Virus record (IMG/VR): IMGVR_UViG_3300012936_000083
Span: 1 to 32,415 of that record
Strand: one strand, 5' to 3'
Source: a virus
DNA: 32,415 nucleotides
The notes under the pieces were generated by a model, which had not been told where the DNA came from, made no database searches, and saw nothing but the letters and a program-made list of their open reading frames with translations. Positions 10,550-25,829 of this stretch are shown piece by piece. Position 1 is the stretch's first letter. Each line of letters starts with the position of its first letter. Both the position numbers and the translations under genes were made by a program.

Positions 10550-10563
10550 TATTTATATTTATA
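10550..10563 (-). promoter_or_regulatory. Two overlapping TATAAATA late promoters
   Basis: The minus strand reads TATAAATATAAATA, two TATAAATA cores sharing two bases. It overlaps the last codons of the 3164-residue gene and lies 40 bases before the gp8-like start. The exact T4 late consensus supports late transcription of the gp8-like gene onward. Confidence 0.75.
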
Positions 10564-13500
10564 CCAGTCTGATTACACTACTTGCGGTTACGGTTCCACC
10601 TGATGCAGGTTGAGTTGTATTAGCGCTAGTGTAATCAATGACGAAACGATCAGACAGTTTGGAACTATACTCCAATTGATATAGACCTACCTGAATGATA
10701 CCAGAAGCAGGGAAACCACTAGTGACTGCGAAGACATTTGGATCTGCTGCTGCATAGTCAACATCCAAGACGGAAGCGTTATAAACGTTTGCGGCAGTTG
10801 TAGTTCCCATACCAATAGCAGGAGGAGTCATGGTTGGTAGGTGTACTGTCGTCGCGGAACTTGTGGAAATTCCTTGAGTTAGAGTGATCTGCTTAATGTT
10901 ATTCAACAGACTTACACTACCAGACGCGACAGTAGAAGTCTGTGCGGGTCTTTGAGTAGTAAGAGTTACAGAATGTGTGGTTGAAATAGCACCTGCATCT
11001 CTATCTAGCTGTTTTCTTAGTGTAAGTTCGCGGAGTGAATTGTAAGGACTTGAAAATACTTCAGTTTGCTCAAGTGTATTATTTACACTTGACTCTACAA
11101 TAGAACTAGTAGAAACAAAAGTTGCTAGTGCTGCAGGAGCACGTTTGATAATCGTTTTCTGATACTTAGTATCAAACTGACGATGTTTCTTGATAATGTT
11201 ATATCCACGAGTTACATTGACTTTAGGAGCAACAGTATATCCACTACCACCTTGAGTCAAGATAACATCGATAACATCACCGCCTTCACATATAACTTCT
11301 GCTTCTGCACCACCACCTTGTTTGTTGGTACTTTCAAACACCAGTTGTGGTGCAGTAGAGTAACCAGAGGCTGTTGGATTCTTGGTAATATCTCTCCTGT
11401 TCCAGGTCAATGAAGTAACAACACCATTAGTAATATTTGCTACTACATCTAAACCTTGACCAAAAGTAACACCATTATAGTTAGAAACAGATACAATACC
11501 AACTACATCAGAAAGTTGAGTATTTGGATTGTACGTCAAACTTGCAATTTCGTTTGGTACTTTTTTAACTACTCTATATTCATTTTCACCATCGATCTGA
11601 ATTCTGTCTCCAGGTTCTAGATCTTGGACGGTAGGCTTATCATGATGATATAACCAAGAAGCAGTATTTTTTCTGAGATATCTTCTGTCATCTCTATCGT
11701 TGTATGTGATTGCTACGGTTGCGTTGGACAGATTTAGTAAGTCATATGGACCAGTAAAATCTAACCCTTTAGAAATTCTAAGAGGTTCTGTAAGATCAAC
11801 TTCGGGGTTCATAGCAGTAAGCATTACAAACTTCCATCCAGTTGCAGTTGTCTCCCAATATTTAATTTCACCAATGGTTTTATTGATTACATTTGGTTGA
11901 CCACTGTTAAACTGCTGGTATACTGGAGCATCTGTTCTACCATTGATAATATTAACGAAGTTGTCGTATTCATCATTACCAGTAATGGAAACTGTAACTT
12001 CATTATAGAAAGAATCTGTATCAATATTAAATGCATCAAGAAGTTGATCTTGATTGTCGCCAACTAATAGAACCATATCAACAGTCTGTCCTTTCCTTGG
12101 ACCTTGGATGAATGTAATACTAGATTCATTAACAGTATATGATTTTCCTCTTTCTTGTAGAATACCATCGAGGAAGACCAAAAGGAATCTATCGTCGTCA
12201 ACAACAACTGCTTCCTTAGTTTCTTCATCCTTCATGATAAATGGACCTCTTGCCTTTCCATTGAGATTATTTTCATCAATGGATAGACGTAAGTATCTTC
12301 CAACATTATGTGCATAAAATTTCTCAACTGCTAGAGGTTCCTGAACAGTCAGAGTATTTAATTCTTGCTCCCATTTAGGTGGTTCTACAAAAACGATTCT
12401 ATCTGGATCGGATCCAGACATCCTCTTAATATTATATGCATTTACTCTTGGGTATTGACTATCATATTTTGCATTCTGGAATACACCATTAATAACTACG
12501 AATAAATCTTCTTTTGCAGATGTATTAACGATGGTGTTATCAGTGTAGTACAAATCAAACTCAACGTTTTCTCCATTGAAATAATCAGGTAAAGACATGG
12601 TAGCATTACCACCATTCAAAACTGTTTCAATGTTAGAATATAGAGAGTTTAGAGCAGATTGAACATTATCGCATTCTGCAAATAAACCAGGACCACCATC
12701 AAAATTACCAGAAAGTATATTGAGGTTGGAGAAAGTTCTACTAGATGCCCAATTACCAGTTCTTTGATTATTATCTGGTGTCTTTTCGATAATGTAAGGA
12801 CCCTTGTTTAAGATCTCCTCTACAATATCAATATAAGACTTAAGAGACTGCTCAACGTCAGCACACTGTGAAGAAGTTCCTCCGTTTGGATCTGGTAATA
12901 CAGTGGTGTCAGTGAATGGGACAAAGATAGTATGTTGACCTGTAGGAAGGTTTTGTCTCATAGCAAGAACCATGAGATCAGTTGCATACTTATACGCCGC
13001 AATACTTTCTGCTTTTTCGGATGAGATGTATGCTAGTTGACTCTTCTTAAAGTAGAACTCAGCAAAATCTACAACCTTAAAGTTACCACCATATCTTAGA
13101 TGATATACAAATGCATCAACTAAAATACCAGTGTCTCTAACACACTTATCTTCGTCAGGAATAGAAAGATTTGGATAAGTTTGTTTTGTCCATCCAATAG
13201 TCTCTTCTGTAATATATGTTCTATTCTTTTCAATCAAACGTGCAGCATCCATGTAGGTGCCATTATTGATTCTACTGAATGAGAATGTTACCTGATCAAT
13301 ATTATTAACAGTATTGTAGATAGTAACAGTAGATCCTAGACCAACATTCAATACACCAGTGTTAGTAACTTGAGTTGGACCATAGTTGACTTGACCTGTA
13401 GTATTGACTACAGTGCTAATAATTTGACCGCTATAGCTAGTGTTTGCTGCTCTAGTGACTCTTACACGATTACCAGATAGAATCTCGGTAACAACAGTTG

Positions 13501-16500
13501 GTTGATCAAACTGACTACCACTGGAAACATTCATACCTACACAAATACCTAGCATAGAAGGCAGTGTAATAATATCTGATCCAGGTGTTACTGTACAACC
13601 TTGCACTGAGATATCCCAGTTACGCATTGCAGCGACACACAGATTCATCACATACTTATAAGTTGCTAGACTTTCTGTTAGTTGAGCATTGATGTATGCT
13701 AGAGCACCATTGTTATAGTAAGACTCTGCTGCCTCTACAGTTTTTTGATTGCCGCCATATCTCAAATCATGCTCAAATGCGTCTACAATGAGACCAATGT
13801 CTCTAACACACTTGCTCTCTAGAGTATTCCATCCTAGATTAGGGAAAGTTTCCTTAGCATAACCAATTGCTTCTTCTTGAATAAATGTTTTGTTAAATCT
13901 AAGTTGATTAGCAGCATCAATCCAAGTTCCTTCTTTCTGGAAGATCTGACGTACTTTCTTTAGGTATTGTGCATTCTTAGTAGCATCCTTATATTGAAAC
14001 TGTCTACCGATAAATTTTTGAGCAGGAATAGAAGCATTGTTCTCGGTACGTGGTCCAAGGGGTGCTTTTGCAAATCTAATAGTATCGCCAGATACAGTGT
14101 AAGCAACTTCTGGTTCTTGGAGGATACCATCTAGAGTAATGGTTAGAGCCATTGCATTATAAGGAGAGATTGCTTGACCAGTATTTACATCTTTGATTAC
14201 AAAATCTCTAGTTCCTCTCTGTAAACCGTCACTATCAAACGCACCATCAAATGCTGGTTCTAATCTAATTTCTTTAGCAGTCAATCCTCTTGGATCAAAT
14301 GATTGTTCAACAACTGAACCAACACCACGAAGAACATTGATATCTTTGTTAAGATTGATAGTGTTAACAATCTGCCTTTTTGTACTAGAAAGTGATGCTT
14401 TATTTTCACTTTCATTCCATAAGTTAAGTTGTGATACTTGAGCAGCTTTAGTATTTTCGTTAATACGAACAGTTGCATTCAAATCAAGATTTAATTCACC
14501 AAACATTTTAAATCCTGCTGGGTGAACAGAATCTTTAATTAAATCCCTCCATTCATTGATACCTGATGTAGACTCAATAACATATGAATAGTCTTGATAG
14601 AAGTTATTGTCGGCAACTCTATGAGTCTTAACACCAACCTTACCTTTATCAGAATCAAATTTTCCTAGATTATCATAATAAGAACGAGTATCAACTACAA
14701 ATTCTGTTTCTAAAATATCATCTACGATACCAGAAGAATTGCTCGAAACTCCAGTGATAGCAGTGCCTTTGACGAACTCACCTGAGGTGATATTTACTTT
14801 AAGAACATTAGAACCTGTTCTCCATCCTCTGTTGGAAACAATACCTCTTGTAGTTCCTTGTGTAATTTGCTCACCCGACAAAAACTCATCTGTGGTGTTT
14901 ACAATCAATGCAATACTAGTAGAGTGTCTTCTTTCTAGAGACTTATTGTCCCAGATTCCAGAACCACTAAACTCAATCTCAACATTTTTAGTAACACCAA
15001 TAGAATTGGATTTTGCATATACACGAAGATCACTTTCAATAACTTTTAAAGATGGTTTATAACTATAGTTTTTACCTTTGTTAGTAACGATAACATTAGC
15101 AATACCATTTGCCGCTGTTTTTAGAATATCAAATGCTACTTCAGCACCATCACCATCGGTAACAATAACTTTTGGTTTAGAATAATTCTTACCAATATTA
15201 TTGATAGTAACACCAGCAATATTCTTATTTACAGAATCCCATTGTGCTGTTACATGTGCTTCATCTGCTGCTCTCATGCTAGCACCAAGAACTGCAGGAA
15301 TTTTCTTATATCCTGTTCCTAGGTTAGCAACAGTAACCTCGGCAATCTCACCGACAGCGTTTGATCCAGATGTAGTATAGGACATGCTTCCTGTACCATA
15401 CCATCTAGGCATACTATCCATTGAATATACAAATTGTCTAGAGGTTACATAGACAATCTCATGTTGACCCTGTAGAGGATCACTAATAATTTCTACGTAG
15501 TTATCGTTATCCCTAATTACATTGGTAGGACCAATTCTAATAGATTGGACGCCAGCAGACGTTGTAGTAACGATTGATTTGTAATAGTATCTTTGGTATA
15601 GCAGATCTTTTCTATCTGTTAGAGTCCCTGATAGGTTTACTGTGCCCAATCTAGCACCATATCCAAACTTAGCATATACACATGCATTTGCAGTACCAGG
15701 AGTACCTTGTCTAACAAGTTCTGGAGCAATGATGTTATCAGACTTACTTGGGGACAGTAAGAACTCAGAATGCACGTTAGTAAAGTGACTTAGATCAAAC
15801 TTATACTGATAATGATTTTGGAACTGAATATTAGGAGAAATTTCGTAAGGTCCGTTTGCATTCTCTGAGATTTTAGTAACGATAATATAGTCAGATACCT
15901 GTTGCAACTTAACTAATTTTTTTGGAACGCTTTCATCAAAGAAACTAGCTCCCAATCCAACTTTATAATCCTCAAAATTTCCAGTTGTAAAGAAGTTTTG
16001 ATTATGCTCAACAACTAATTTACTATTACTATAAGATACAACAACAGGATCTAATGTAGAATTACCAGTAATAGGAATAGTGCTTCCTACAGAGAATCTA
16101 AAATCGGGAATATCTAAAGAAACATCTTCTCTATGATAATGGTCTTCATCGACCGTTCCTTTTTGTGCTCTTGTTACTACTACTTGTTTTGCAGTTTCTC
16201 TAACGTCAGTGATCTGCATGATTTCATCACCAACTTTGATGTAGTCGTTATCTGCTAACTCAGACACATCAAACAGAGTTAGTAAATTATCTCCAGCACC
16301 AAATCCAATATGCTCAACACTAATCTTCAGATCTTGAGAATCTGCAGGAGCGCTACCACTCTTAGATAAAGATACATCAGGAACAGAAAGAACATCTCCT
16401 AGTTTGTATCCAGATCCTTTATTGACTAGTACAACTGTACTAACTTTACCATCTGCATTTGTAGTAATGTTTGCGGTTGCTCCATTTCCAGATCCACCAG

Positions 16501-19500
16501 TTAGAGCTATATCTGCAAACGTGTTGCTTGCTTGATAATCAGCACCACTATTTTGTATTTTTATTCTACCAATGCCTTCATCATTTACTTTAGTGGTGAA
16601 TGATAGTGGAATTAGATCAATTTCTTGAATAGCACCTAGTTGTACATAATAATCTTTTGTAGTAACACTGTCGTCAGGATCAATCCTTACATTAATTAGA
16701 TTACCAACAGAAAGATCGTGATCTGTGCTTGTAGTTACTAGAGCAACTTTAGTGTCTACTTTAAATGGAACCAATCCTGTACTTAGACTCTTAGTAGATA
16801 AAATCTCGGCACCAATAGTGTTAAGTAGGTTGTTACTTCTTAGATAATAATTTTGGGTGATGATTGTAAAATCACCATTCAATACTTTAACTTTGACTGA
16901 GTTTCTTCTGTCTGTAGATTCAATAACTTCGCCACTAGCTAGAACATTATTACCATCAGTGTATTCGATGATAGCGCCTTTGGTGAAGGTAGCATTTGTA
17001 TTAAGAACAATATTCAAAGATAAGGTAGAAGAATCAAACAATCCAGTATCATTGAATGTTCCACCTGTAATATTTTTAAGTACAATAAACTTACCGTCAA
17101 GAACATCACCAACAGAAACACCAGAAACACCTGAAGAAGGTTGACTGATTGTGTCTCCATCAAAGATGTAGCAATTCTCTGTAATTTGCAGAGTTGCAAC
17201 TTTCTGTGATTGAACTTCTTTGTTAGTTGACTCAATGGTAGATACTGTCTTGCCTTTGATCTGTGTAATAGATCCTCTAGCATCACTACCGTTGGTATCA
17301 ACATCGTTTAGTATAATTGTACTACCTACAGAAAGGTTATCGGAAGAATCATAAACACTAAATGACTCTACACTACCTGTAGAAATATCTTTTGTTGTTG
17401 CTCTAGTAACAAGACCATTGTTAGGAGTTGTTGCTCTTCTAATTCTTACAGCATTTATTGGTAGATCACTATGAGTTTGGAACTGTGTATAGTTTGCTGC
17501 TAACGGTAATGCATAGAAGTTTTCACCTATAATATATGGATATGCAGGATCTCCATTAGTATCTTCGGTAGCAAAGTATGCATAGACGCCATCAGGGTAT
17601 TCAGGTGTTACACAGAATCTACCATTGTTTCTGTCTACATCACCAAGTCTATCTGCATAGTAATAGTCTTGAGTGAATGAACCTAGTGGATAAGTTGCGA
17701 CAGATGGACCATTAGAACGTGTAGTCCTCTTTCTATAACCAGAATCGATCCTCTTAATAGCAGAAGTGCTGTCCACTGGATCAGTGTAACCATAAGGACC
17801 ATAGATTGGATTACCATCGTAGGCAAAACCAATAATAGGAGAGTGATTAGCAATAGTATCATTAAGACTTGTCTTCAATGAAGGTGGATATGCAACTGCA
17901 CCATAGTTTCTAAATCCTCTGGAGTTTAGGAAAGAGAATCCATTCTCAGTATCTTTATCAGATCCTAGGGTTTCGTATCTATTCTTAACCCACTCAAAGA
18001 TAGATGCTGTTGCTGTAGCATTAGATCCAGAAGGAATTATCTCAACTAAAACATCTCCAGCTGTATAGAACGAACCACCATTGATTTTAATCATCTCAGT
18101 GATTTGTCCAGTTGCAGAGACTCTTGCCTCATAGTCTGCAAATCTACCTCTACCGTTCCTATCAGTGATTCTGATTGTAGGAGGTGCAGAGTAATATTCA
18201 CCAGGATTTGTAATAGTAATGCTAGTAATCTCACCCATCGTGACTACAGCAGTCAAAACAGCATTTCTACCAGAGACAATATCTACAGTAGGTGCTGTGG
18301 TATAATTACCAGGAGTATCAACAGTGACGGATTCTACAACCAAACCCGACATATTTGCTGTCGCTAGATATGGTGTGTTGTTAACCAAAACAAATGGTGG
18401 TCTGCTATATCCAGTGCCTTGGTTGTTTACCTTGATAGATGTAATACCACCTGTGAATACACTATCTTCATGTTTGTGACTATATGCTAGTACACCATCA
18501 ACAAAGATTCCAACATCTTTTCTAGAGGATGCATATGTCTCAGTTGTAGTCTCAGGAGACTTACGAATAGTTCTTAGTAGAGGTTGATCTACTGGTGTGT
18601 CGCTAGCAGGAATCGTCTGATTGAAGAAGACGGTTCTTCCTACAGGGAATCCACTAGAACAAATATAATAGTTCTTCTCATCCTCAAAAATTTCTGTGAT
18701 ACCAGGAATAGTCTTAGTATTAGCACTAGTAGTTCTGGCGTCTCCACTTTGTACAACATCAGTAGGTTGTGGGAATTTCCATCTAATCGTATTGGTAGAT
18801 GTCTTAATGATAGGATCTACAGTATCAAATCCAGACTTCTCTACATTAATTACTTCTCCTTCAATACCATATGGTACAGAAGATTTGGGGATTAGATTAT
18901 ATACAACACCTAGAGCAATCAAAGATACATTCTTACCCTTGATTACTGTATTGCTATAAATTCTCGTACCAATAGCATGTGTGGTAGATAGTGATCTGTT
19001 TTTAATGATGAACTTTCTAGCAGTCTTTGACGAATACTCGATAAGCTCACTGTTGATGTAGAAAGATCCTTCCTTCTCCCAACCAAATGTCGAATCTACT
19101 TCAATACTATCGCCAACTGTATCAGTTGTGGAAATAACCTTTGTTATGAATGTTTTGTTAGCAACAGAAAATGCATTGTTGATGGTTGATTTATTGAGAA
19201 CAATGTCCCACATTTGTACACCATCTACAACCTGTTCTTTGAGAACATTCTCAACAACAGCAGATGCAAAATTACCACTACTTTCTGTAATACTCTCACC
19301 AATTAGATCTTCTGGGTTTCCACTTAGAGCAATGACTCTAATAGCATGTACATTAGACCAGTCAGACTCAGATGCTTTTAGTGTAACTTCTTTTGGATAG
19401 TATACATCCGTATCATTACTACTAATTAAAGCATTGAACAAAAATTGAATAGAACGCTTGGTTCCTTTAGCTTTGTAGAAAGATCCAATGTTCTTGATAA

Positions 19501-20053
19501 GAGTTCTTTTATCAATCTCGCCTCTTAGATACTTTTCTGGAATACCTGCAAGATACTCTGACTCAAATCCTTGAATCAGACTGAATAAGAATAGATTACT
19601 TAAATTTTGTACTTTTGAATCTACAGCATGATTATCTGCTACTGTAGAAACAAAATTAGATGTATGATATAAATCTCCAAGAGTTGTATTGCCGTGTACA
19701 CCACGTCTTAGACCATCTAGTGTTGTATCAGTCTTAGAAGTGTAGAAAATAATCTCATCGTCAATCTTTACCAGTCCTTGATCAGGATACCCTTCTGTAG
19801 ATACAACGTTGATACTCGTCTGTGAGTTACTAGCAGCAGATGATAAAGTTGTTGTGGAGAATACTGACTTGTCATAGAAGTTGATATCACGGTAAGTAGT
19901 CAGGTTGTTAATAAGATCTAGAATACCACCTTGCAGTTCTTGCTGCCCATAGTAAGACTTAAGGAAACTACCAAATAACTGATAGTCCTCTACAATAAAA
20001 TTAGGTAACTGATTCTCAATCAGATACGAGATGTTTCTAGACTTTAAGTTCAT
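10559..20053 (-). CDS. Giant virion protein in gp7 position with YHYH-like segment and internal duplication
   Basis: The product is 3164 residues, three times T4 gp7 (1032). It starts by an ATGA overlap with gp6 and is followed by the gp8-like gene, exactly where T4 has gene 7. N-terminal residues 1-230 (IENQLPNFIVEDYQLFGSFL; RTLIKNIGSFYKAKGTKRSI) resemble large cyanophage baseplate proteins. Near residue 735-760 a YHYH-like signature is visible (NHSPIIGFAYDGNPIYGPYG). Repeats of GxGYxxxPxV type recur near residues 551, 583, 623, 1218, 1580, 1624, 1661 and 2940. Two related blocks of about 95 residues lie at about 2050-2147 and 2276-2364 (both with KCVRD and LRYGGN). I infer a baseplate wedge or fibre-platform protein. 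Function beyond virion structure is unknown. Confidence 0.8.
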   Translation of the reverse strand: MNLKSRNISYLIENQLPNFIVEDYQLFGSFLKSYYGQQELQGGILDLINNLTTYRDINFYDKSVFSTTTLSSAASNSQTSINVVSTEGYPDQGLVKIDDEIIFYTSKTDTTLDGLRRGVHGNTTLGDLYHTSNFVSTVADNHAVDSKVQNLSNLFLFSLIQGFESEYLAGIPEKYLRGEIDKRTLIKNIGSFYKAKGTKRSIQFLFNALISSNDTDVYYPKEVTLKASESDWSNVHAIRVIALSGNPEDLIGESITESSGNFASAVVENVLKEQVVDGVQMWDIVLNKSTINNAFSVANKTFITKVISTTDTVGDSIEVDSTFGWEKEGSFYINSELIEYSSKTARKFIIKNRSLSTTHAIGTRIYSNTVIKGKNVSLIALGVVYNLIPKSSVPYGIEGEVINVEKSGFDTVDPIIKTSTNTIRWKFPQPTDVVQSGDARTTSANTKTIPGITEIFEDEKNYYICSSGFPVGRTVFFNQTIPASDTPVDQPLLRTIRKSPETTTETYASSRKDVGIFVDGVLAYSHKHEDSVFTGGITSIKVNNQGTGYSRPPFVLVNNTPYLATANMSGLVVESVTVDTPGNYTTAPTVDIVSGRNAVLTAVVTMGEITSITITNPGEYYSAPPTIRITDRNGRGRFADYEARVSATGQITEMIKINGGSFYTAGDVLVEIIPSGSNATATASIFEWVKNRYETLGSDKDTENGFSFLNSRGFRNYGAVAYPPSLKTSLNDTIANHSPIIGFAYDGNPIYGPYGYTDPVDSTSAIKRIDSGYRKRTTRSNGPSVATYPLGSFTQDYYYADRLGDVDRNNGRFCVTPEYPDGVYAYFATEDTNGDPAYPYIIGENFYALPLAANYTQFQTHSDLPINAVRIRRATTPNNGLVTRATTKDISTGSVESFSVYDSSDNLSVGSTIILNDVDTNGSDARGSITQIKGKTVSTIESTNKEVQSQKVATLQITENCYIFDGDTISQPSSGVSGVSVGDVLDGKFIVLKNITGGTFNDTGLFDSSTLSLNIVLNTNATFTKGAIIEYTDGNNVLASGEVIESTDRRNSVKVKVLNGDFTIITQNYYLRSNNLLNTIGAEILSTKSLSTGLVPFKVDTKVALVTTSTDHDLSVGNLINVRIDPDDSVTTKDYYVQLGAIQEIDLIPLSFTTKVNDEGIGRIKIQNSGADYQASNTFADIALTGGSGNGATANITTNADGKVSTVVLVNKGSGYKLGDVLSVPDVSLSKSGSAPADSQDLKISVEHIGFGAGDNLLTLFDVSELADNDYIKVGDEIMQITDVRETAKQVVVTRAQKGTVDEDHYHREDVSLDIPDFRFSVGSTIPITGNSTLDPVVVSYSNSKLVVEHNQNFFTTGNFEDYKVGLGASFFDESVPKKLVKLQQVSDYIIVTKISENANGPYEISPNIQFQNHYQYKFDLSHFTNVHSEFLLSPSKSDNIIAPELVRQGTPGTANACVYAKFGYGARLGTVNLSGTLTDRKDLLYQRYYYKSIVTTTSAGVQSIRIGPTNVIRDNDNYVEIISDPLQGQHEIVYVTSRQFVYSMDSMPRWYGTGSMSYTTSGSNAVGEIAEVTVANLGTGYKKIPAVLGASMRAADEAHVTAQWDSVNKNIAGVTINNIGKNYSKPKVIVTDGDGAEVAFDILKTAANGIANVIVTNKGKNYSYKPSLKVIESDLRVYAKSNSIGVTKNVEIEFSGSGIWDNKSLERRHSTSIALIVNTTDEFLSGEQITQGTTRGIVSNRGWRTGSNVLKVNITSGEFVKGTAITGVSSNSSGIVDDILETEFVVDTRSYYDNLGKFDSDKGKVGVKTHRVADNNFYQDYSYVIESTSGINEWRDLIKDSVHPAGFKMFGELNLDLNATVRINENTKAAQVSQLNLWNESENKASLSSTKRQIVNTINLNKDINVLRGVGSVVEQSFDPRGLTAKEIRLEPAFDGAFDSDGLQRGTRDFVIKDVNTGQAISPYNAMALTITLDGILQEPEVAYTVSGDTIRFAKAPLGPRTENNASIPAQKFIGRQFQYKDATKNAQYLKKVRQIFQKEGTWIDAANQLRFNKTFIQEEAIGYAKETFPNLGWNTLESKCVRDIGLIVDAFEHDLRYGGNQKTVEAAESYYNNGALAYINAQLTESLATYKYVMNLCVAAMRNWDISVQGCTVTPGSDIITLPSMLGICVGMNVSSGSQFDQPTVVTEILSGNRVRVTRAANTSYSGQIISTVVNTTGQVNYGPTQVTNTGVLNVGLGSTVTIYNTVNNIDQVTFSFSRINNGTYMDAARLIEKNRTYITEETIGWTKQTYPNLSIPDEDKCVRDTGILVDAFVYHLRYGGNFKVVDFAEFYFKKSQLAYISSEKAESIAAYKYATDLMVLAMRQNLPTGQHTIFVPFTDTTVLPDPNGGTSSQCADVEQSLKSYIDIVEEILNKGPYIIEKTPDNNQRTGNWASSRTFSNLNILSGNFDGGPGLFAECDNVQSALNSLYSNIETVLNGGNATMSLPDYFNGENVEFDLYYTDNTIVNTSAKEDLFVVINGVFQNAKYDSQYPRVNAYNIKRMSGSDPDRIVFVEPPKWEQELNTLTVQEPLAVEKFYAHNVGRYLRLSIDENNLNGKARGPFIMKDEETKEAVVVDDDRFLLVFLDGILQERGKSYTVNESSITFIQGPRKGQTVDMVLLVGDNQDQLLDAFNIDTDSFYNEVTVSITGNDEYDNFVNIINGRTDAPVYQQFNSGQPNVINKTIGEIKYWETTATGWKFVMLTAMNPEVDLTEPLRISKGLDFTGPYDLLNLSNATVAITYNDRDDRRYLRKNTASWLYHHDKPTVQDLEPGDRIQIDGENEYRVVKKVPNEIASLTYNPNTQLSDVVGIVSVSNYNGVTFGQGLDVVANITNGVVTSLTWNRRDITKNPTASGYSTAPQLVFESTNKQGGGAEAEVICEGGDVIDVILTQGGSGYTVAPKVNVTRGYNIIKKHRQFDTKYQKTIIKRAPAALATFVSTSSIVESSVNNTLEQTEVFSSPYNSLRELTLRKQLDRDAGAISTTHSVTLTTQRPAQTSTVASGSVSLLNNIKQITLTQGISTSSATTVHLPTMTPPAIGMGTTTAANVYNASVLDVDYAAADPNVFAVTSGFPASGIIQVGLYQLEYSSKLSDRFVIDYTSANTTQPASGGTVTASSVIRLV

Positions 20054-21852
20054 TCTGGAACAGCACTAAAGTTGGATTTGGAGATATCAACATCAAGATA
20101 AACTTCACGTACAGCATTTACATCTTTAGATGCAGGTTCTACGCGAATTTCAATTTTGTTATCAGAAAAACTACCTGAGATGATAGTTAAGTCGTACAGT
20201 TTAATTTCACCTTTTTCATAATTGATTTCACCGACTTCTCTCTGTACGTAAACCTTTTCACCAGTTAGAGAATTCAGTCTATATAGGTCGATTTTACCAG
20301 CGGTATCATCTTCCAAGTATACAGTAAATGATGGATATTCTGATACAACAAAACCAGTAGACTTCATGACTGGATCATCACAAGAATCTTTAAATTCGTT
20401 CAAGAAACACAACTCGTAATAGAATGTGGAGTTAAGTGTTGGATAGAAGTCTTTCCTCAGTGTAACATTTGTAATATTTGAAGAAATTGCGGGATCTGCA
20501 CCATCAATCACCGCTGCATATCTAGAATGACGGAATCTGCCGTTAAACTTCTCAGTTTGACTAGATGCAGTATATTCATCAACCGCAGTTGTAACTTTTT
20601 TGCTAATCTCTGCTTTAGTCTCAGTAGTCTTAGAAGACTTGTAGCTTACAACCGAAGACAACTCGATGTATAGAATAGAAGGATCGATAATTTCAGGTGT
20701 TACTGATGCAATTGTGTAATCCTTTAATTTTTTAACAATATCTTTCTTTGTGAATGAAGATAGAGCAGTTCCTACCTTTGGTTTGATAGCAATCTTAACT
20801 TTACCGAACTCGGGTGGATCATCTTGCTCACCACCAAATGTAATGATGTCTGCAGTTGCAGGGAAGACCTTTCTAACAATCGATGCGTAATCGTCCTGTG
20901 TAACCGCTCTGTCTTGAGCAGCAAAGGTCTTTGGAGCAGCATACTTGATAGACGACACAGACTCAATTTCAGCGCCTCCCTGCGCCGCTGAGACCGTTGT
21001 GATGGTTGGGTTAAACTGGAATGGTTGACCAGACTTAGTTGTTATAATACCAGAGAACGAAAATGTCTTAGCGCCATTTGCATCTTCGCCATCGGTAACA
21101 ACATATGTTACTTCTACAAAATTATTGTGCTGTAGTTTCTTACCATAGACACCATCACCAAAAAACAACTCATATTGTTCATCGAGAGTTTCCTCTACAA
21201 AGAAAACTTCGGATGAAGAATCTAAATCTAAAATATTGTCTGCAACATCATATGTTTGATATGTTGTGCTGCTTTCGGTTTCATATACTCTGATCTTAAT
21301 TGTAGATGCATCTAGACCAGGGTTGTTGAGAACAAACTTTTGGTTCTTCAGTGCAGTGTTAATAGTAAATGACTGCTTAATTAATGTTCCTTGATATACG
21401 TCAACTGTACCAAAATTAGCAGTGTTACCATTTAGAGGTGCTTCATGATCATCAACAACTACAAACTGATAGATAGCGTCGTCAAATGATGTGGTGAAAC
21501 CAGTTCCTCTCTTCAATACACATGTTGTTGGTGGAGTGCCTTGTCCCGCATATGCAAGAGAAAAATCTAACTTAGCTAGTGGTGCAGTAGTAGACCTGGG
21601 GCGATATCCAATCTGCTTCGCCAGGGACACCACATTGTCTCTCAAGGACGCGGAATCCAAGAACATCTCATTGATCACCATGTTCGTGTTGAACGCGGTG
21701 TAATAAGTGTTATATGCTAGTACGTCTAGCATTGTGCTCAAGGTTGATCCTTCAAAGTCATAATCAGTGAAATCACTATTCGCTCTGAGGTAATCAACCA
21801 AGGATGCTTTAATGTCTGCGAAATCTAGATTCGCAAGTTGAGTGTAAGGCAT
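20050..21852 (-). CDS. 6: Baseplate wedge protein gp6
   Basis: The product is 600 residues, close to T4 gp6 (660). The N-terminus (DFADIKASLVDYLRANSDFT, then MLDVLAYNTYYTAFNTNMVI) is the characteristic gp6 start, with the conserved run about one dimensional baseplate-J-like segments downstream (RAVTQDDYASIVRKVFPATA). In T4, gp6 dimers form the inner ring that holds the six wedges together and opens during sheath contraction. Here the start shares one base with the gp25 stop, and the stop overlaps the start of the giant gp7-position gene by four bases. This is one of the firmest calls in the window. Confidence 0.93.
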   Translation of the reverse strand: MPYTQLANLDFADIKASLVDYLRANSDFTDYDFEGSTLSTMLDVLAYNTYYTAFNTNMVINEMFLDSASLRDNVVSLAKQIGYRPRSTTAPLAKLDFSLAYAGQGTPPTTCVLKRGTGFTTSFDDAIYQFVVVDDHEAPLNGNTANFGTVDVYQGTLIKQSFTINTALKNQKFVLNNPGLDASTIKIRVYETESSTTYQTYDVADNILDLDSSSEVFFVEETLDEQYELFFGDGVYGKKLQHNNFVEVTYVVTDGEDANGAKTFSFSGIITTKSGQPFQFNPTITTVSAAQGGAEIESVSSIKYAAPKTFAAQDRAVTQDDYASIVRKVFPATADIITFGGEQDDPPEFGKVKIAIKPKVGTALSSFTKKDIVKKLKDYTIASVTPEIIDPSILYIELSSVVSYKSSKTTETKAEISKKVTTAVDEYTASSQTEKFNGRFRHSRYAAVIDGADPAISSNITNVTLRKDFYPTLNSTFYYELCFLNEFKDSCDDPVMKSTGFVVSEYPSFTVYLEDDTAGKIDLYRLNSLTGEKVYVQREVGEINYEKGEIKLYDLTIISGSFSDNKIEIRVEPASKDVNAVREVYLDVDISKSNFSAVPE

Positions 21853-22247
21853 TACTGACTACGATTTAAGAAGAACTCAATTGATATGCGTGGTACATCA
21901 GCACGACTGAGAACTTTAAAGTCCAATCGTACATCAAAACCGTTAGAATCAAAGTTAGGTTCGACTATACATTCCTGAATCGAAACCCTCGGTTCATATG
22001 TCTTGAGTGTCCTAACTATTTCATCTTTAATACTACCAGCAGTACCAAAATCTAGTGGTTCAAACAGATATGATCTAACATTAGAACCATACTGTGCATC
22101 ATATAATCTTTCTCCTTTATTAGTCAGAAGAATATTCAAAACCGCCTGCTTTACCGCAGCATCTTCCTTCTTCACCAAAAGGTCTTCAGTGACCTTGTTT
22201 TTGGCGAAAGAAAGGGATAGATCCTTAAACGGTACAGTAGACGGCAT
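21852..22247 (-). CDS. 25: Baseplate wedge protein gp25 (GPW/gp25 family)
   Basis: The product is 131 residues; T4 gp25 is 132. The core (KQAVLNILLTNKGERLYDAQ, then YGSNVRSYLFEPLD) carries the family pattern of a conserved Glu-Arg after the turn and the Phe-Glu-Pro signature. gp25 sits at the wedge core next to gp6 and gp53 and helps nucleate the sheath. The start is unusual: a perfect 7-bp stem-loop ends two bases before the ATG and leaves no room for a normal Shine-Dalgarno. Gene order gp25 then gp6 with a one-base overlap supports the call. Confidence 0.95.
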   Translation of the reverse strand: MPSTVPFKDLSLSFAKNKVTEDLLVKKEDAAVKQAVLNILLTNKGERLYDAQYGSNVRSYLFEPLDFGTAGSIKDEIVRTLKTYEPRVSIQECIVEPNFDSNGFDVRLDFKVLSRADVPRISIEFFLNRSQ

Positions 22248-22248
22248 T

Positions 22249-22269
22249 AAGTGATTGCTAGTATCACTT
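22249..22269 (-). promoter_or_regulatory. Stem-loop immediately before the gp25 start
   Basis: A perfect 7-bp stem (AAGTGAT/ATCACTT, 7-base loop) ends two bases before the gp25 ATG. There is no Shine-Dalgarno between the stem and the start; a purine-rich GGCGGAA lies upstream of the stem. T4 gene 25 is known to use a hairpin between its ribosome site and start codon to bring them together, so this may be an analogous device. Confidence 0.55.
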
Positions 22270-22278
22270 TATTTAGCG

Positions 22279-22449
22279 TCATTCCGCCCAACGGTCACGG
22301 AGTTCTTGACGCTTTGCTTCTTTCTTCTTGCGTTCTGCAATGATTTGCAAATACGGTTCACTATCAATCTCAGTGATAAGCGTCCTTCCTTGTGCAATAA
22401 AATCTTCGCTCTTATCGACGCTACCGTCGAGATGCTTAGGGTGTCCCAT
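22279..22449 (-). CDS. Small charged protein, unknown
   Basis: I choose the ATG at 22449 (56 residues, MGHPKHLDGSVDKSEDFI) because a GGAG lies 6 bases before it. A TTG 54 bases further upstream is also in frame but has no such signal. The C-terminus is a basic/acidic helix (AERKKKEAKRQELRDRWAE). The gene lies between the oxygenase cassette and gp25, with a gap on both sides. No family is recognised. Confidence 0.7.
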   Translation of the reverse strand: MGHPKHLDGSVDKSEDFIAQGRTLITEIDSEPYLQIIAERKKKEAKRQELRDRWAE

Positions 22450-22507
22450 GATTATCTCCGTTAAATGTGTAACGGAACTTTTAACGGGGTTCCATCCCTT
22501 CAACTAT

Positions 22508-22999
22508 TTAGATTTTAACCCAATCTACATCATAACGAATAGGCATAACATCAATAACTAGAGAATACCTAAAGTCACCACTCTTGTTATGTGGTACATC
22601 ATGCTTTAGTTCAGATGGGAAGATCTGTAGTTGTCCATGCTTATTCTCATGCAACTCATCACCAAACCTTGTACCAGTCTTTGTATCTCCCCCTAGGAAG
22701 AGGTTTGTGCATGTAAAAGGTTTTCCATACCTAGGAGCATGTTCATCGTGGTTGTGCTCCATAATATAGAGGTCTGGTTTGATGATATTACCCCATGCGG
22801 AGTAGAACTTACCAGTACCAAACAATAGATGCAGTTTTGGTTTCAAGATTTGATAAACAGTCTCATGCTTCAATGGATTATGACCATGAGACTTACCAAT
22901 GTGATACATGTCGTGCATATCACCTGCAATCTCTTTTAGTGCCCCGATAATTTGATCACATTCTTCAATATTGCAAAAATTATCAATTTTAAAAATCAT
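22508..22999 (-). CDS. 2OG-Fe(II) oxygenase-like protein D
   Basis: The product is 163 residues. A double-stranded beta-helix oxygenase pattern is visible: an iron-binding H84-x-E86 within EHNHDEH, a distal His at about 133 (LKHDV) and an Arg at 144 that would hold 2-oxoglutarate. The segments LFGTGKFYSAW and PFTCTNLFLGGDTKTGT match its neighbour at 24320 (protein A), so the two look like paralogues. Glu in place of the usual Asp in HxD is tolerated in the superfamily but lowers certainty. The start overlaps the previous stop by ATGA. Such enzymes usually hydroxylate proteins, nucleobases or small molecules; the substrate here is unknown. Confidence 0.72.
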   Translation of the reverse strand: MIFKIDNFCNIEECDQIIGALKEIAGDMHDMYHIGKSHGHNPLKHETVYQILKPKLHLLFGTGKFYSAWGNIIKPDLYIMEHNHDEHAPRYGKPFTCTNLFLGGDTKTGTRFGDELHENKHGQLQIFPSELKHDVPHNKSGDFRYSLVIDVMPIRYDVDWVKI

Positions 23000-23742
23000 C
23001 GAGGGGCATCTCCAGGTTGTAAATTGTGGAAAAAGAATCCTAAGTTCATTCTTGTTACATTACCAGCAAAATAGTCATCATGGATATTCATACCATGGTG
23101 ATACTTTGCACCATCAAATATTACTGCACGGTTATACTTAGGTTCTAAGTTATGTAACAATTTATAGTTTTCCTTGGGACGCCATGGTTGCTCATGCTCT
23201 CTTACATCTTCTCCTTCATAATCTGGTGCTAGACACTTATAGACGTTAGTACCAGTATTATCAGTTTCGTTTAGATAGATCAAAGCAGAATATCCAGCAT
23301 CTTTATGTGGCCACCAATAATTGTTTTCATAATCATTCCATGGGTCTTTCTTGAAGAAGAAACAATTAGAAATTACAGCACGACGATCACATGGTACTTG
23401 TCTAATACCCATACCTAGCAATACTCGATGCAAATGCTCATATGCTGGTAAAATATTGTCGCTATAGAATTCATGGCGCATATCATTAAAATATTCACCA
23501 TTATAGTTCTTACGACCAGTGGATTTATCTGGATTGAAAAGTTTATTCTGATGAACAGCATTGTCCATACTATTATTACTAGTACCACCTTCTTTATGGA
23601 AGTTTGGTTGAATATGGTATAGTAATGTGATTACATCATCAGGATACTTGAAAAAGTTATCAATGTAAGCATATGGAGATTTGCCTTCGATCATTCCATA
23701 CTCGATGGTTTGATCTTTATTCAATTCAAAATAGTTTCTCAT
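22996..23742 (-). CDS. 2OG-Fe(II) oxygenase-like protein C
   Basis: The product is 248 residues. The core WWPHKDAGYSALIYLNE carries H146-x-D148, followed by the distal His pair at 215-216 (FDGAKYHHGMN) and R231 (VTRMNLGFFF), the order expected for Fe(II) and 2-oxoglutarate ligands. It resembles the DUF6445 type of phage and marine bacterial oxygenases more than its neighbours, so it was probably acquired separately. Both ends overlap the adjacent genes by ATGA. The substrate is unknown. Its N-terminus (SPYAYIDNFFKYPDDVITLL) is the usual lead-in helix of this fold. Confidence 0.75.
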   Translation of the reverse strand: MRNYFELNKDQTIEYGMIEGKSPYAYIDNFFKYPDDVITLLYHIQPNFHKEGGTSNNSMDNAVHQNKLFNPDKSTGRKNYNGEYFNDMRHEFYSDNILPAYEHLHRVLLGMGIRQVPCDRRAVISNCFFFKKDPWNDYENNYWWPHKDAGYSALIYLNETDNTGTNVYKCLAPDYEGEDVREHEQPWRPKENYKLLHNLEPKYNRAVIFDGAKYHHGMNIHDDYFAGNVTRMNLGFFFHNLQPGDAPR

Positions 23743-24323
23743 CGTTGTAATACTAGATTAAATGAAAATGTTAATCGACCATCTTTATCATTTCGTCTGA
23801 GAACCTCATGTTCCAAATATGGAGGAAACAAAATAATCTGACCCTCACTTGGTTTGAAGTGATAACTATCATACATTGATTCCCTAAGACCACTCCTCTC
23901 AATACCACGATACCTCATAGATCGGTAATGTGTTGATATTGGATAGAATGTTGTCGGAGATGGTTTCCTATTATAATAAACGCCACTTAGAAATACTGGT
24001 CGCCTTCCATCCATGTGGTCATGACGTTCTTGATATTGACCTTCGTGATACACGTTATACCAAAACGTTAACATCTCACAAGGTTGCAATCCCTCACGTC
24101 GTAGTTCGTTATTACATGCATTCTCAATATCACCAATAAGACGATCCCTTACGTCTTGTGGGACTAAGGGATCATCATCAGGAATACGTGGGAATGTACT
24201 ATTAACATCACAAGACCACCCAGGTGGTGTGTTTTCTACCTTTCCAGGATCTACGAAAAAATACTTACTATGTTTATTGAAATTAAAACAAATAATTTGA
24301 GTGGGAAAAATATCAATAATCAT
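23739..24323 (-). CDS. 2OG-Fe(II) oxygenase-like protein B (2OG-FeII_Oxy_5 type)
   Basis: The product is 194 residues. It shows the pattern of the putative 2OG-Fe(II) oxygenase family common in marine T4-like phages: FWYNVYHEGQYQERHDHMDG, then LSGVYYN, then GQIILFPPYLEHEV, then GRLTFSFNLVL. Likely metal ligands are H101, H103 and H172, with R183 for 2-oxoglutarate. The first motif reads HxH here, not the usual HxD. The start overlaps the previous stop by ATGA. Its role in phage biology is not established; virion-protein hydroxylation is one possibility given its location. Confidence 0.8.
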   Translation of the reverse strand: MIIDIFPTQIICFNFNKHSKYFFVDPGKVENTPPGWSCDVNSTFPRIPDDDPLVPQDVRDRLIGDIENACNNELRREGLQPCEMLTFWYNVYHEGQYQERHDHMDGRRPVFLSGVYYNRKPSPTTFYPISTHYRSMRYRGIERSGLRESMYDSYHFKPSEGQIILFPPYLEHEVLRRNDKDGRLTFSFNLVLQR

Positions 24324-24859
24324 TTTAGTTTAAACATCACTGGGTTATTCTTGCGAACATGAATATCTGTCGCCATGGTAACCCTTACATCATCTCCTTC
24401 ATATGCTTCAGTCCAATGACTGATTCCAGCATGAAATACTAATAACTCACCAATGTGATTCTCATATGTCTTGCCTTCATAGATGGTGCCGCCACTGCTA
24501 TCACCACCCAAATATAAGTTACATGATGTAAAGGGATGCATTACCTTCTGTAATGGATCTCTCGTATCATAGTGTTTGTGGGGTTCGATCCTGTCGCCCT
24601 TCCTGAAGGCGTTGAACCATGCTTGTAACCACTTACCCCTACCAAACAGTATACGATACTTAGGGAGGACGATAGGACCCACTACGGAGTCCTGTAGAGC
24701 ATTGTAGTAACGGTATCGACCAGTTAACTTGTCTCCCTTGACGCTGGGGTAATCATGCTCCCCCAACGCCATTAGTTCATCCTCTTTTTCTAATACCCTC
24801 TCATAACATATAGATGCTTCCCTTTCGGAGAGAAACTCAGGTATTCTAAAAACGTTCAT
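24320..24859 (-). CDS. 2OG-Fe(II) oxygenase-like protein A
   Basis: The product is 179 residues. Visible ligands are H96-x-D98 (EPHKHYDTRD), distal H148 (GISHWTEAY) and R159 (DDVRVTMATDI), in the order and spacing of the superfamily. Segments LFGRGKWLQAWFNAF and PFTSCNLYLGGDSSGGT align with protein D at 22508, so A and D are probably paralogues separated by the unrelated-looking B and C. The start overlaps the stop of the EF-hand gene by ATGA, making it the first oxygenase translated in the chain. The substrate is unknown. Confidence 0.78.
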   Translation of the reverse strand: MNVFRIPEFLSEREASICYERVLEKEDELMALGEHDYPSVKGDKLTGRYRYYNALQDSVVGPIVLPKYRILFGRGKWLQAWFNAFRKGDRIEPHKHYDTRDPLQKVMHPFTSCNLYLGGDSSGGTIYEGKTYENHIGELLVFHAGISHWTEAYEGDDVRVTMATDIHVRKNNPVMFKLK

Positions 24860-24999
24860 TCAGATTCTTCAGAGCTTTCGGCGCTAGGGTTTGCTGCTTC
24901 TCTCTCTTCTGTATCAATGTTACCGTCGTTATTAGTGTCCCAGTCGCTGCGATACTGCAGGTTCTTAGGTTTGCCGACAGTATACTTAAACTCGGTCAT
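24856..24999 (-). CDS. 47-residue protein with a canonical EF-hand loop
   Basis: This short gene is read from the sequence directly. Its start is an ATG overlapping the previous stop (ATGA), preceded by AAGGA; its stop overlaps the next start by ATGA. Residues 21-32 read DTNNDGNIDTEE, which fits the calcium-binding loop pattern D-x-N-x-D-G-x-I-D-x-x-E at every key position. The flanks are short (MTEFKYTVGKPKNLQYRSDW before, an acidic Ser/Glu tail after), so a full helix-loop-helix is unlikely and a single-loop calcium site is inferred. No known family. It may bind calcium in the virion or in a partner protein. Confidence 0.75.
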   Translation of the reverse strand: MTEFKYTVGKPKNLQYRSDWDTNNDGNIDTEEREAANPSAESSEESE

Positions 25000-25142
25000 C
25001 GTCCTTGTCCTCGATATGGTTTACGCGCCTTGTTACGGGAGGTCGCACTGTATTTAGTATTCTTCCCGCTTCCCTGGCGTGTGCTCTTGGGCTTGGAATC
25101 GATACTAGGTGATACGCCTAATCCTGCTTTACTGCGAGCCAT
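24996..25142 (-). CDS. 48-residue basic protein, conserved-looking in cyanophages
   Basis: Translation gives MARSKAGLGVSPSIDSKPKS followed by a Lys/Arg-rich stretch ending KPYRGQGR. It is strongly basic with no predicted fold. The stop overlaps the start of the EF-hand gene (ATGA). The end YRGQGR and the Ser-Lys-Pro-Lys-Ser centre resemble short proteins I recall near the baseplate genes of T4-like cyanophages. A nucleic-acid or virion-contact role is possible. The upstream Shine-Dalgarno is weak. Confidence 0.72.
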   Translation of the reverse strand: MARSKAGLGVSPSIDSKPKSTRQGSGKNTKYSATSRNKARKPYRGQGR

Positions 25143-25172: not shown

Positions 25173-25523
25173 TCACATCGCAAAGAACTTAGCACCCCCT
25201 GCAGGGGAATTCGCCATTGTCGTTACGATTGGTGTGCCGCCACTTGTCCCTAAGATATCCCCTACCCTGCAAACACGACGACCGCCAAAGAATACTTTAG
25301 TGCTCGTACCAATTGCAGTCCTGGGGGTGACGCATGGATCTCCTTTCGGTGTCGTTCCAGGTGCTGGGGTTAATACATCACCTTCGAGAATTACAGGGAA
25401 CCCTCCGACGAAATACTTGCCTGCTGCTAATCCAACAGGTCCAATACCACAGGGCGGCGTGTTACAACTTCCACTTCCCCCACTGTCGGGCGTTCCGTTG
25501 TAACATACAATGGGCTTACTCAT
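25173..25523 (-). CDS. PAAR-repeat spike-tip protein
   Basis: The product is 116 residues. Gly/Pro-rich beta repeats with paired Cys (GSGSCNTPPCGIGP) and the segments VGGFPVILEGDVLTP and VFFGGRRVCRVGDIL are typical of PAAR proteins. These form a sharp, metal-stabilised cone that caps the central spike (gp5/VgrG) of contractile tails and helps pierce the host envelope. It lies at the head of the baseplate block. Its ATG overlaps the stop of the preceding coiled-coil gene, so it is probably co-translated with it. Confidence 0.88.
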   Translation of the reverse strand: MSKPIVCYNGTPDSGGSGSCNTPPCGIGPVGLAAGKYFVGGFPVILEGDVLTPAPGTTPKGDPCVTPRTAIGTSTKVFFGGRRVCRVGDILGTSGGTPIVTTMANSPAGGAKFFAM

Positions 25524-25821: not shown

Positions 25822-25829
25822 TATTTATC
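25822..25829 (-). promoter_or_regulatory. Late promoter motif GATAAATA before the baseplate block
   Basis: Reads GATAAATA on the minus strand. A transcript from here would begin near 25815, just after the ATG at 25818 and before the starts at 25774/25764. It is the likely entry promoter for PAAR, the oxygenase chain, gp25 and gp6. Confidence 0.65.

Follow-up and report, generated by a model that had tools for sequence, protein, structure and literature searches.

The analysed stretch, here called the window, is a 32,415-bp contig of an uncultured virus (IMG/VR record IMGVR_UViG_3300012936_000083) that originates from a marine cyanobacterial virus and whose relatives are T4-like cyanophages. 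It carries a cassette of four genes for 2-oxoglutarate (2OG)-Fe(II) oxygenase-like proteins, ox1 to ox4, upstream of the baseplate gene gp25, in a variable slot where related phages keep different sets of oxygenases and also SET-domain proteins. The reading we favour, with a rough probability of 45%, is that the cassette encodes late enzymes which modify tail or baseplate proteins. The location deserves more interest than the oxygenase count, and the enrichment of 2OG and SET genes at this slot is the new element. Read along the minus strand, hypothetical genes come first, followed by PAAR, a basic peptide, an EF-hand-loop peptide, ox4, ox3, ox2, ox1, a small protein, gp25 and gp6, and lastly giant virion proteins. 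The slot, its contents and its neighbours are as follows.

25173-25523, minus strand: PAAR-like spike protein, the upstream neighbour (PF05488, E=4e-5; phrog_281, E=1e-13)
24996-25142, minus strand: basic peptide of 48 amino acids (aa), the conserved upstream boundary of the slot (phrog_516, E=5e-23)
24856-24999, minus strand: EF-hand-loop peptide, 47 aa, with a calcium-loop consensus and a Pfam EF-hand score under the cut-off
24320-24859, minus strand: ox4, 2OG-Fe(II) oxygenase-like, 179 aa (HxH...H...R; phrog_81, E=3e-8; PF13759, E=1e-3)
23739-24323, minus strand: ox3, 2OG-Fe(II) oxygenase-like, 194 aa (H101-x-H103...H172...R183; PF13759, E=8e-15; phrog_81, E=4e-28)
22996-23742, minus strand: ox2, 2OG-Fe(II) oxygenase-like, 248 aa (H146-x-D148...H216...R231; phrog_1644, E=1e-31)
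22508-22999, minus strand: ox1, 2OG-Fe(II) oxygenase-like, 163 aa (H82-x-H84...H133...R144; PF13759, 26.7 bits against a cut-off of 27)
22279-22503, minus strand: small protein between ox1 and gp25, frequently found in the slot (phrog_12480)
21852-22247, minus strand: gp25, baseplate wedge or sheath initiator, the downstream boundary of the slot (PF04965, E=4e-13; phrog_261, E=8e-47)

In order to survey this site, each slot was delimited by gp25 on one side and the phrog_516 basic peptide on the other, and 79 slots were taken from gp25 loci found with the gp25 proteins of the window's relatives as seeds, a set that includes a few near-identical contigs. At least one oxygenase was present in 30 slots and a SET-domain protein in 25, with both in six and either in 49. 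The oxygenases of the 30 oxygenase-bearing slots belong to approximately eleven subfamilies. The SET domains, which are lysine methyltransferase-like, were confirmed by Pfam (3e-11, 6e-13, 7e-11 and 6e-8), and the proteins keep the motifs NHS.xPN and GEEL..YTFY. In a tree built from 69 gp25 rows, nine changes of the oxygenase label are required, at least six of which are forced by well-supported branches; different oxygenases have been gained and lost repeatedly at this slot. Slots from the 52 rows that fall outside the EF-bearing clade had 0.32 oxygenases per kb, compared with no more than 0.068 per kb genome-wide in 13 cultured genomes, and nominal P-values for this enrichment are optimistic because the slots are related. 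Four of the five cultured genomes with one SET gene have it in the slot (P-RSM6, Sf-CH1b, S-B05 and SynMITS9220M01), while the P-SSM7 copy lies beside nrdB. Of the cultured phages, S-CAM3 has no slot enzyme, and Sf-CH11 is slot-bearing like Sf-CH1b, S-B05 and P-RSM6.

The cassette itself is conserved at the same location in many uncultured cyanophage contigs, as emerged from the gene-order comparison that a preceding reading of the DNA from its letters alone (hereafter the sequence-only reading) had proposed. The same four oxygenases occur in the same order in at least five other contigs. Other close relatives have three of them (ox4, ox3 and ox2), or two together with a 139-aa protein, and more distant ones show ox4-ox2-ox1, ox4-ox2-ox1-ox2, ox3-ox4-ox4 or other subfamilies, invariably placed with the basic and EF genes on one side and gp25 on the other. 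Four-base overlaps are retained where the 139-aa protein stands between ox4 and ox3 or replaces ox4 (contigs L017:1713-2132 and L035:3766-4185). Besides such proteins of 139-229 aa without assigned function, the slot may hold an HNH gene. Another frequent slot gene belongs to a family of 211-229 aa (L073, L107, L135, L137, L138, L084 and L086), whose label 'PurM' in cultured phages lacks Pfam support. In the slots of L087, L105 and L140, a 2OG oxygenase gene is followed by a SET gene, with a 1-base overlap or a 1-base gap, directly upstream of gp25, and L121 and L142 have the same oxygenase-SET pair with different oxygenase subfamilies.

Within the window, the six open reading frames from 24996-25142 through 22508-22999 are joined by five overlaps of exactly four bases each, which confirms the chain of ATGA-coupled genes (basic peptide, EF-hand peptide and four oxygenases) described in the sequence-only reading. 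An overlap of this size was found in 19% of 109 neighbouring gene pairs from annotated stretches of related cyanophages. Five in succession amount to approximately 3e-4 per start position, which is uncommon, not extraordinary, and fits the style of these genomes.

The assignment of the four proteins to the 2OG-Fe(II) oxygenases, also made in that reading, proved right with regard to PF13759 and PHROG matches and to the models of ox1 and ox2. Scores for PF13759 (2OG-FeII_Oxy_5; curated cut-off 27 bits) were 55.5 bits for ox3, 26.7 for ox1, 20 for ox4 and 13.2 for ox2. Judged by its sequence, ox3 is a clear PF13759 member; ox1 and ox4 are paralogues with 34% identity, both with weak PF13759 tails, and ox2 matches phrog_1644 (E=1.3e-31 over 3-240), its further 2OG matches being weak. 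The AlphaFold model of ox1 (predicted local distance difference test, pLDDT, 87) reached a best Z of 16.0 against solved 2OG oxygenases (160 residues, 3.0 Å) and a Z of 14.5 against the PF13759-type structure 2RG4, and that of ox2 (pLDDT 84) a best Z of 12.9 (161-174 residues, 2.6-3.4 Å). The top structural matches of ox2 were mostly protein hydroxylases, with OGFOD1, the lysyl hydroxylase LH3, mimivirus L230, P3H1, P4H and PHD2 among them, and the neighbours of the ox1 and ox2 models also include EF-Tu prolyl hydroxylase and ribosomal hydroxylases. The matches to solved 2OG oxygenases take in the greater part of either protein. As modelled, ox1 and ox2 have the double-stranded beta-helix fold of 2OG oxygenases, which the sequence-only reading had named as the feature to look for in structure predictions; ox3 and ox4 were assigned from sequence only.

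In place of the ligand triad expected by that reading stand HxD...H in ox2 and HxH...H, with HxH instead of HxD as the first ligand motif, in ox1, ox3 and ox4, and each form is invariant among the relatives of the respective families. Since ox3 aligns with the solved PF13759-type structures 3BVC and 2RG4, both of which also carry HxH, this putative metal-binding motif is characteristic of the family rather than a mark of decay. Furthermore, an arginine 11-15 residues past the distal histidine, the predicted binder of the 2OG carboxylate, is invariant in all four families. The ratio of non-synonymous to synonymous substitution rates (dN/dS) between the window and its relatives was 0.08-0.17 for the four oxygenases, similar to gp25, and 0-0.10 for the EF-hand-loop peptide; all six chain genes are under purifying selection.

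Several database labels concern the same enzymes. The PHROG label of phrog_1644 is 'minor coat protein', which looks wrong given the oxygenase fold of the ox2 model and the S-SCSM1 proteome summary, where no oxygenase is named. The slot copy of Sf-CH1b, labelled 'DNA endonuclease V' or 'DNA endonuclease', is a PF13640 2OG oxygenase. Such endonuclease labels were not accepted as they stand: one ACG-2014b copy is likewise a PF13640 2OG oxygenase, and a second ACG-2014b copy has no such match. In several cases tested, by Pfam or by fold, the labels of phrog_274 ('DNA endonuclease V') and phrog_1644 are attached to 2OG oxygenases.

With regard to the two small peptides at the head of the chain, the Lys/Arg-rich phrog_516 peptide sits upstream of gp25 in nearly all cyanophage slots surveyed. 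The EF-hand-loop peptide has one complete 12-residue loop, DTNNDGNIDTEE, and its pattern D-x-N/D-x-D-G-x-I/V-D-x-x-E is kept in array-bearing relatives; 15 distinct relatives were found, with the loop retained. Its likeness to the helix-loop-helix pair of EF-hands is limited to a single loop, with a Pfam EF-hand score of 14.7 bits against a cut-off of 25.9. The idea that this peptide is an obligate partner or substrate of the oxygenases was rejected: contigs L073-L075 have the peptide and no recognisable oxygenases, and L060 and L085 have oxygenases and no such peptide.

Sequence matches to late-promoter consensus motifs, which are consensus matches only, were located at three positions.

25822-25829, minus strand: late-promoter-like GATAAATA, approximately 300 bp before PAAR and upstream of the gene run from PAAR to ox1
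22505-22512, minus strand: TCTAAATA at the end of ox1, kept at the corresponding position in L006, L007, L019, L021, L024 and L035
22269-22277, minus strand: late-promoter-like GCTAAATA, approximately 30 bp 5' of gp25 and conserved in array-bearing relatives

Seven array-bearing relatives were checked for the first of these motifs, GATAAATA (once TATAAATA), and six have it 306-392 bp 5' of PAAR. The cassette is probably expressed late, as far as these motifs indicate. Variants of GCTAAATA precede gp25 in the cultured phages S-RSM4, Syn1, S-CAM3 and Sf-CH11, and the motif in the window (22269-22277) and its relatives is a strongly conserved CTAAATA. The placing of the oxygenases under the baseplate late promoter, as put forward in the sequence-only reading, is thus too simple, since a separate conserved motif precedes gp25 downstream of the oxygenases. 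One baseplate promoter over the whole run is not supported, and gp25-gp6 can be transcribed without the cassette because gp25 has a late-promoter-like motif of its own.

Tandem 2OG oxygenases are common in cyanophages, and the notion that four in a row are exceptional had to be given up: longer arrays exist in cultured phages, with approximately eight genes within 5.6 kb in S-RSM4 (89.3-95.0 kb), beside a giant tail fibre gene. A second S-RSM4 array (151-155 kb) adjoins a virion structural gene and a tail assembly chaperone. Similarly, Sf-CH11 has an array between the baseplate hub and a giant tail protein and another beside a short tail fibre, the Syn1 array adjoins a short tail fibre gene, that of Sf-CH1b follows a tail collar gene, and those of S-SCSM1, S-CAM9 and ACG-2014b adjoin tail fibres. 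In S-SCSM1, oxygenases also lie among replication genes (69-86 kb). The S-RSM4 array at 89.3-95.0 kb resembles the cassette as a tandem series among virion genes and differs in its site, in its subfamilies and in that no EF-hand peptide was seen there. A tryptophan halogenase gene (PF04820, E=5e-70 in L012) is found close to tandem 2OG oxygenases in P-RSM6 (148-157.6 kb) and L012 (3716-7611); the oxygenases of L012 follow two probable tail-type genes, and the halogenase is a possible further protein-modifying enzyme.

In the mechanism that we propose, a four-oxygenase cassette inserted in the variable slot between the phrog_516 peptide and gp25 of a T4-like cyanophage would supply enzymes that each use O2, 2OG and Fe(II) to hydroxylate side chains of proteins produced at the same time. 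The likeliest targets would be tail or baseplate proteins during late infection, the enzymes themselves would not join the particle, and the four-base coupling would hold them at similar amounts. With various enzymes available at the slot, lineages could alter how an exposed or assembly-critical protein is modified. Support comes from the fold, the conserved ligands, the dN/dS of 0.08-0.17, the slot contents, the forced gains and losses and the slot density. The sequence-only reading had likewise proposed a dedicated modification system; its argument from the tandem number does not hold, and the role itself has become more plausible because SET-domain proteins share the slot and other oxygenase arrays adjoin tail genes. 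Differing enzymes at one spot suggest, though they do not prove, chemical modification by these viruses of their own tail proteins. That the slot is a dedicated, exchangeable module, in which lineages swap hydroxylases and SET lysine methyltransferases acting on a single conserved late protein (perhaps the phrog_516 peptide, perhaps an exposed baseplate protein) and so tune assembly or host recognition, is a bolder and doubtful extension.

Several observations weigh against the proposed mechanism. Homologues of ox2 and ox3 lie beside replication genes (helicase, clamp and clamp loader) in Sf-CH8, S-SCSM2R, L011, L037 and L042, and relatives of ox3 in S-SCSM1 and L055 lie between sugar isomerase and epimerase genes of the nucleotide-sugar type. 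Because the same families adjoin such genes, neither position nor family alone fixes a substrate, and the neighbourhood evidence on this point is moderate at best. The promoter-like motif of gp25 means that co-transcription of the cassette with the baseplate is not required, the enrichment comes from a survey seeded with gp25 sequences close to that of the window and from slots that are related, and the slot may be a mere tolerated insertion site, the gp46-gp25 interval being a named hot-spot. The large virion proteins of the window contain neither collagen-like (Gly-X-Y)6 repeats nor EF-like loops, and collagen-like targets were rejected. The virion proteome summaries of S-SCSM1 and S-SZBM1 name no oxygenase, which fits unpackaged enzymes and gives no positive support.

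Next in rank stands the less probable explanation which sees the slot as a permissive hot-spot for insertions, lying between promoters, where oxygenase and SET genes pile up as common members of the cyanophage gene pool without a functional link to the baseplate. The gp46-gp25 interval, which corresponds to the slot, was named a gene hot-spot in 2010 (Sullivan et al. 2010, PMC3037559), the slot also carries the HNH gene and the proteins of 139-229 aa mentioned above, 2OG genes are abundant genome-wide and their families move between contexts. Nevertheless, oxygenase density in the slot is several-fold over the genome-wide upper bound, SET genes are rare elsewhere, and the window's relatives show strong purifying selection and a preserved gene order. 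We rank after it, as unlikely, an action of the oxygenases on proteins of the host (ribosome, EF-Tu or other factors) or on its 2OG/nitrogen physiology, the location by gp25 only providing late, high expression. In its favour, a published proposal connects the 2OG oxygenases of cyanophages with 2OG drawdown and NtcA signalling (PMC3037559), EF-Tu and ribosomal hydroxylases are among the structural neighbours, and family members lie beside replication genes, but a 2OG sink would not need four distinct active sites, late expression would come late for reprogramming the host, and the SET genes in the slot are left unexplained.

Modification of small molecules or glycans, such as nucleotide sugars decorating the virion or host surface, is improbable: the sugar-gene context of the ox3 relatives and the high Foldseek rank of natural-product oxygenases for ox1 speak for it, whereas the window's cassette and its surroundings showed no recognisable sugar gene, the best alignments of ox2 are with protein hydroxylases, and co-location with SET genes points to protein substrates. 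We give least credence to AlkB-like repair or modification of DNA, suggested earlier for cyanophage 2OG oxygenases near uvsX/uvsY/uvsW and repeated in PMC9146016. AlkBH2/3 are among the weak Foldseek matches of ox2, yet the cassette lies among virion genes and VIA-align puts protein hydroxylases above AlkBH3 for ox2, by little.

Concerning previous work, few unexplained genes of marine cyanophages are as numerous as the 2OG oxygenases, which are mostly classed as helpers of metabolism; a slot at a fixed place by the baseplate, filled time and again with hydroxylase-like and lysine-methyltransferase-like genes, points to tail protein modification. Cyanophages typically have 1-5 2OG oxygenases and up to 24 (S-SCSM1), and the proposed roles are 2OG/nitrogen signalling or DNA repair, one paper stating that function was not investigated (PMC3037559, PMC9602691). 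Known cyanophage members (PF13759/PF13640) share superfamily and subfamilies with those of the window as small single-domain enzymes, often in tandem; they have been described as scattered auxiliary metabolic genes, whereas the window has a coupled array in a fixed slot which takes SET genes in relatives. In its account of the hot-spot, Sullivan et al. (2010) report small, mostly hypothetical genes, and the 2OG/SET enrichment comes from the present analysis. In the open-licence literature, no paper was found that links phage oxygenase arrays to virion modification, nor any report of SET genes in cyanophages. The double-stranded beta-helix of the models matches viral prolyl/lysyl hydroxylases (PBCV-1 vCPH and mimivirus L230) and the bacterial P4H acting on EF-Tu, at approximately 9-18% identity and with HxH, not HxD, in ox1, ox3 and ox4. 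Viral proteins with 4-hydroxyproline have a precedent (Eriksson 1999, as cited in PMC9301287). Finally, one of the giant virion proteins (3164 aa, window positions 10559-20053) contains a YHYH domain (PF14240, E=3e-29).

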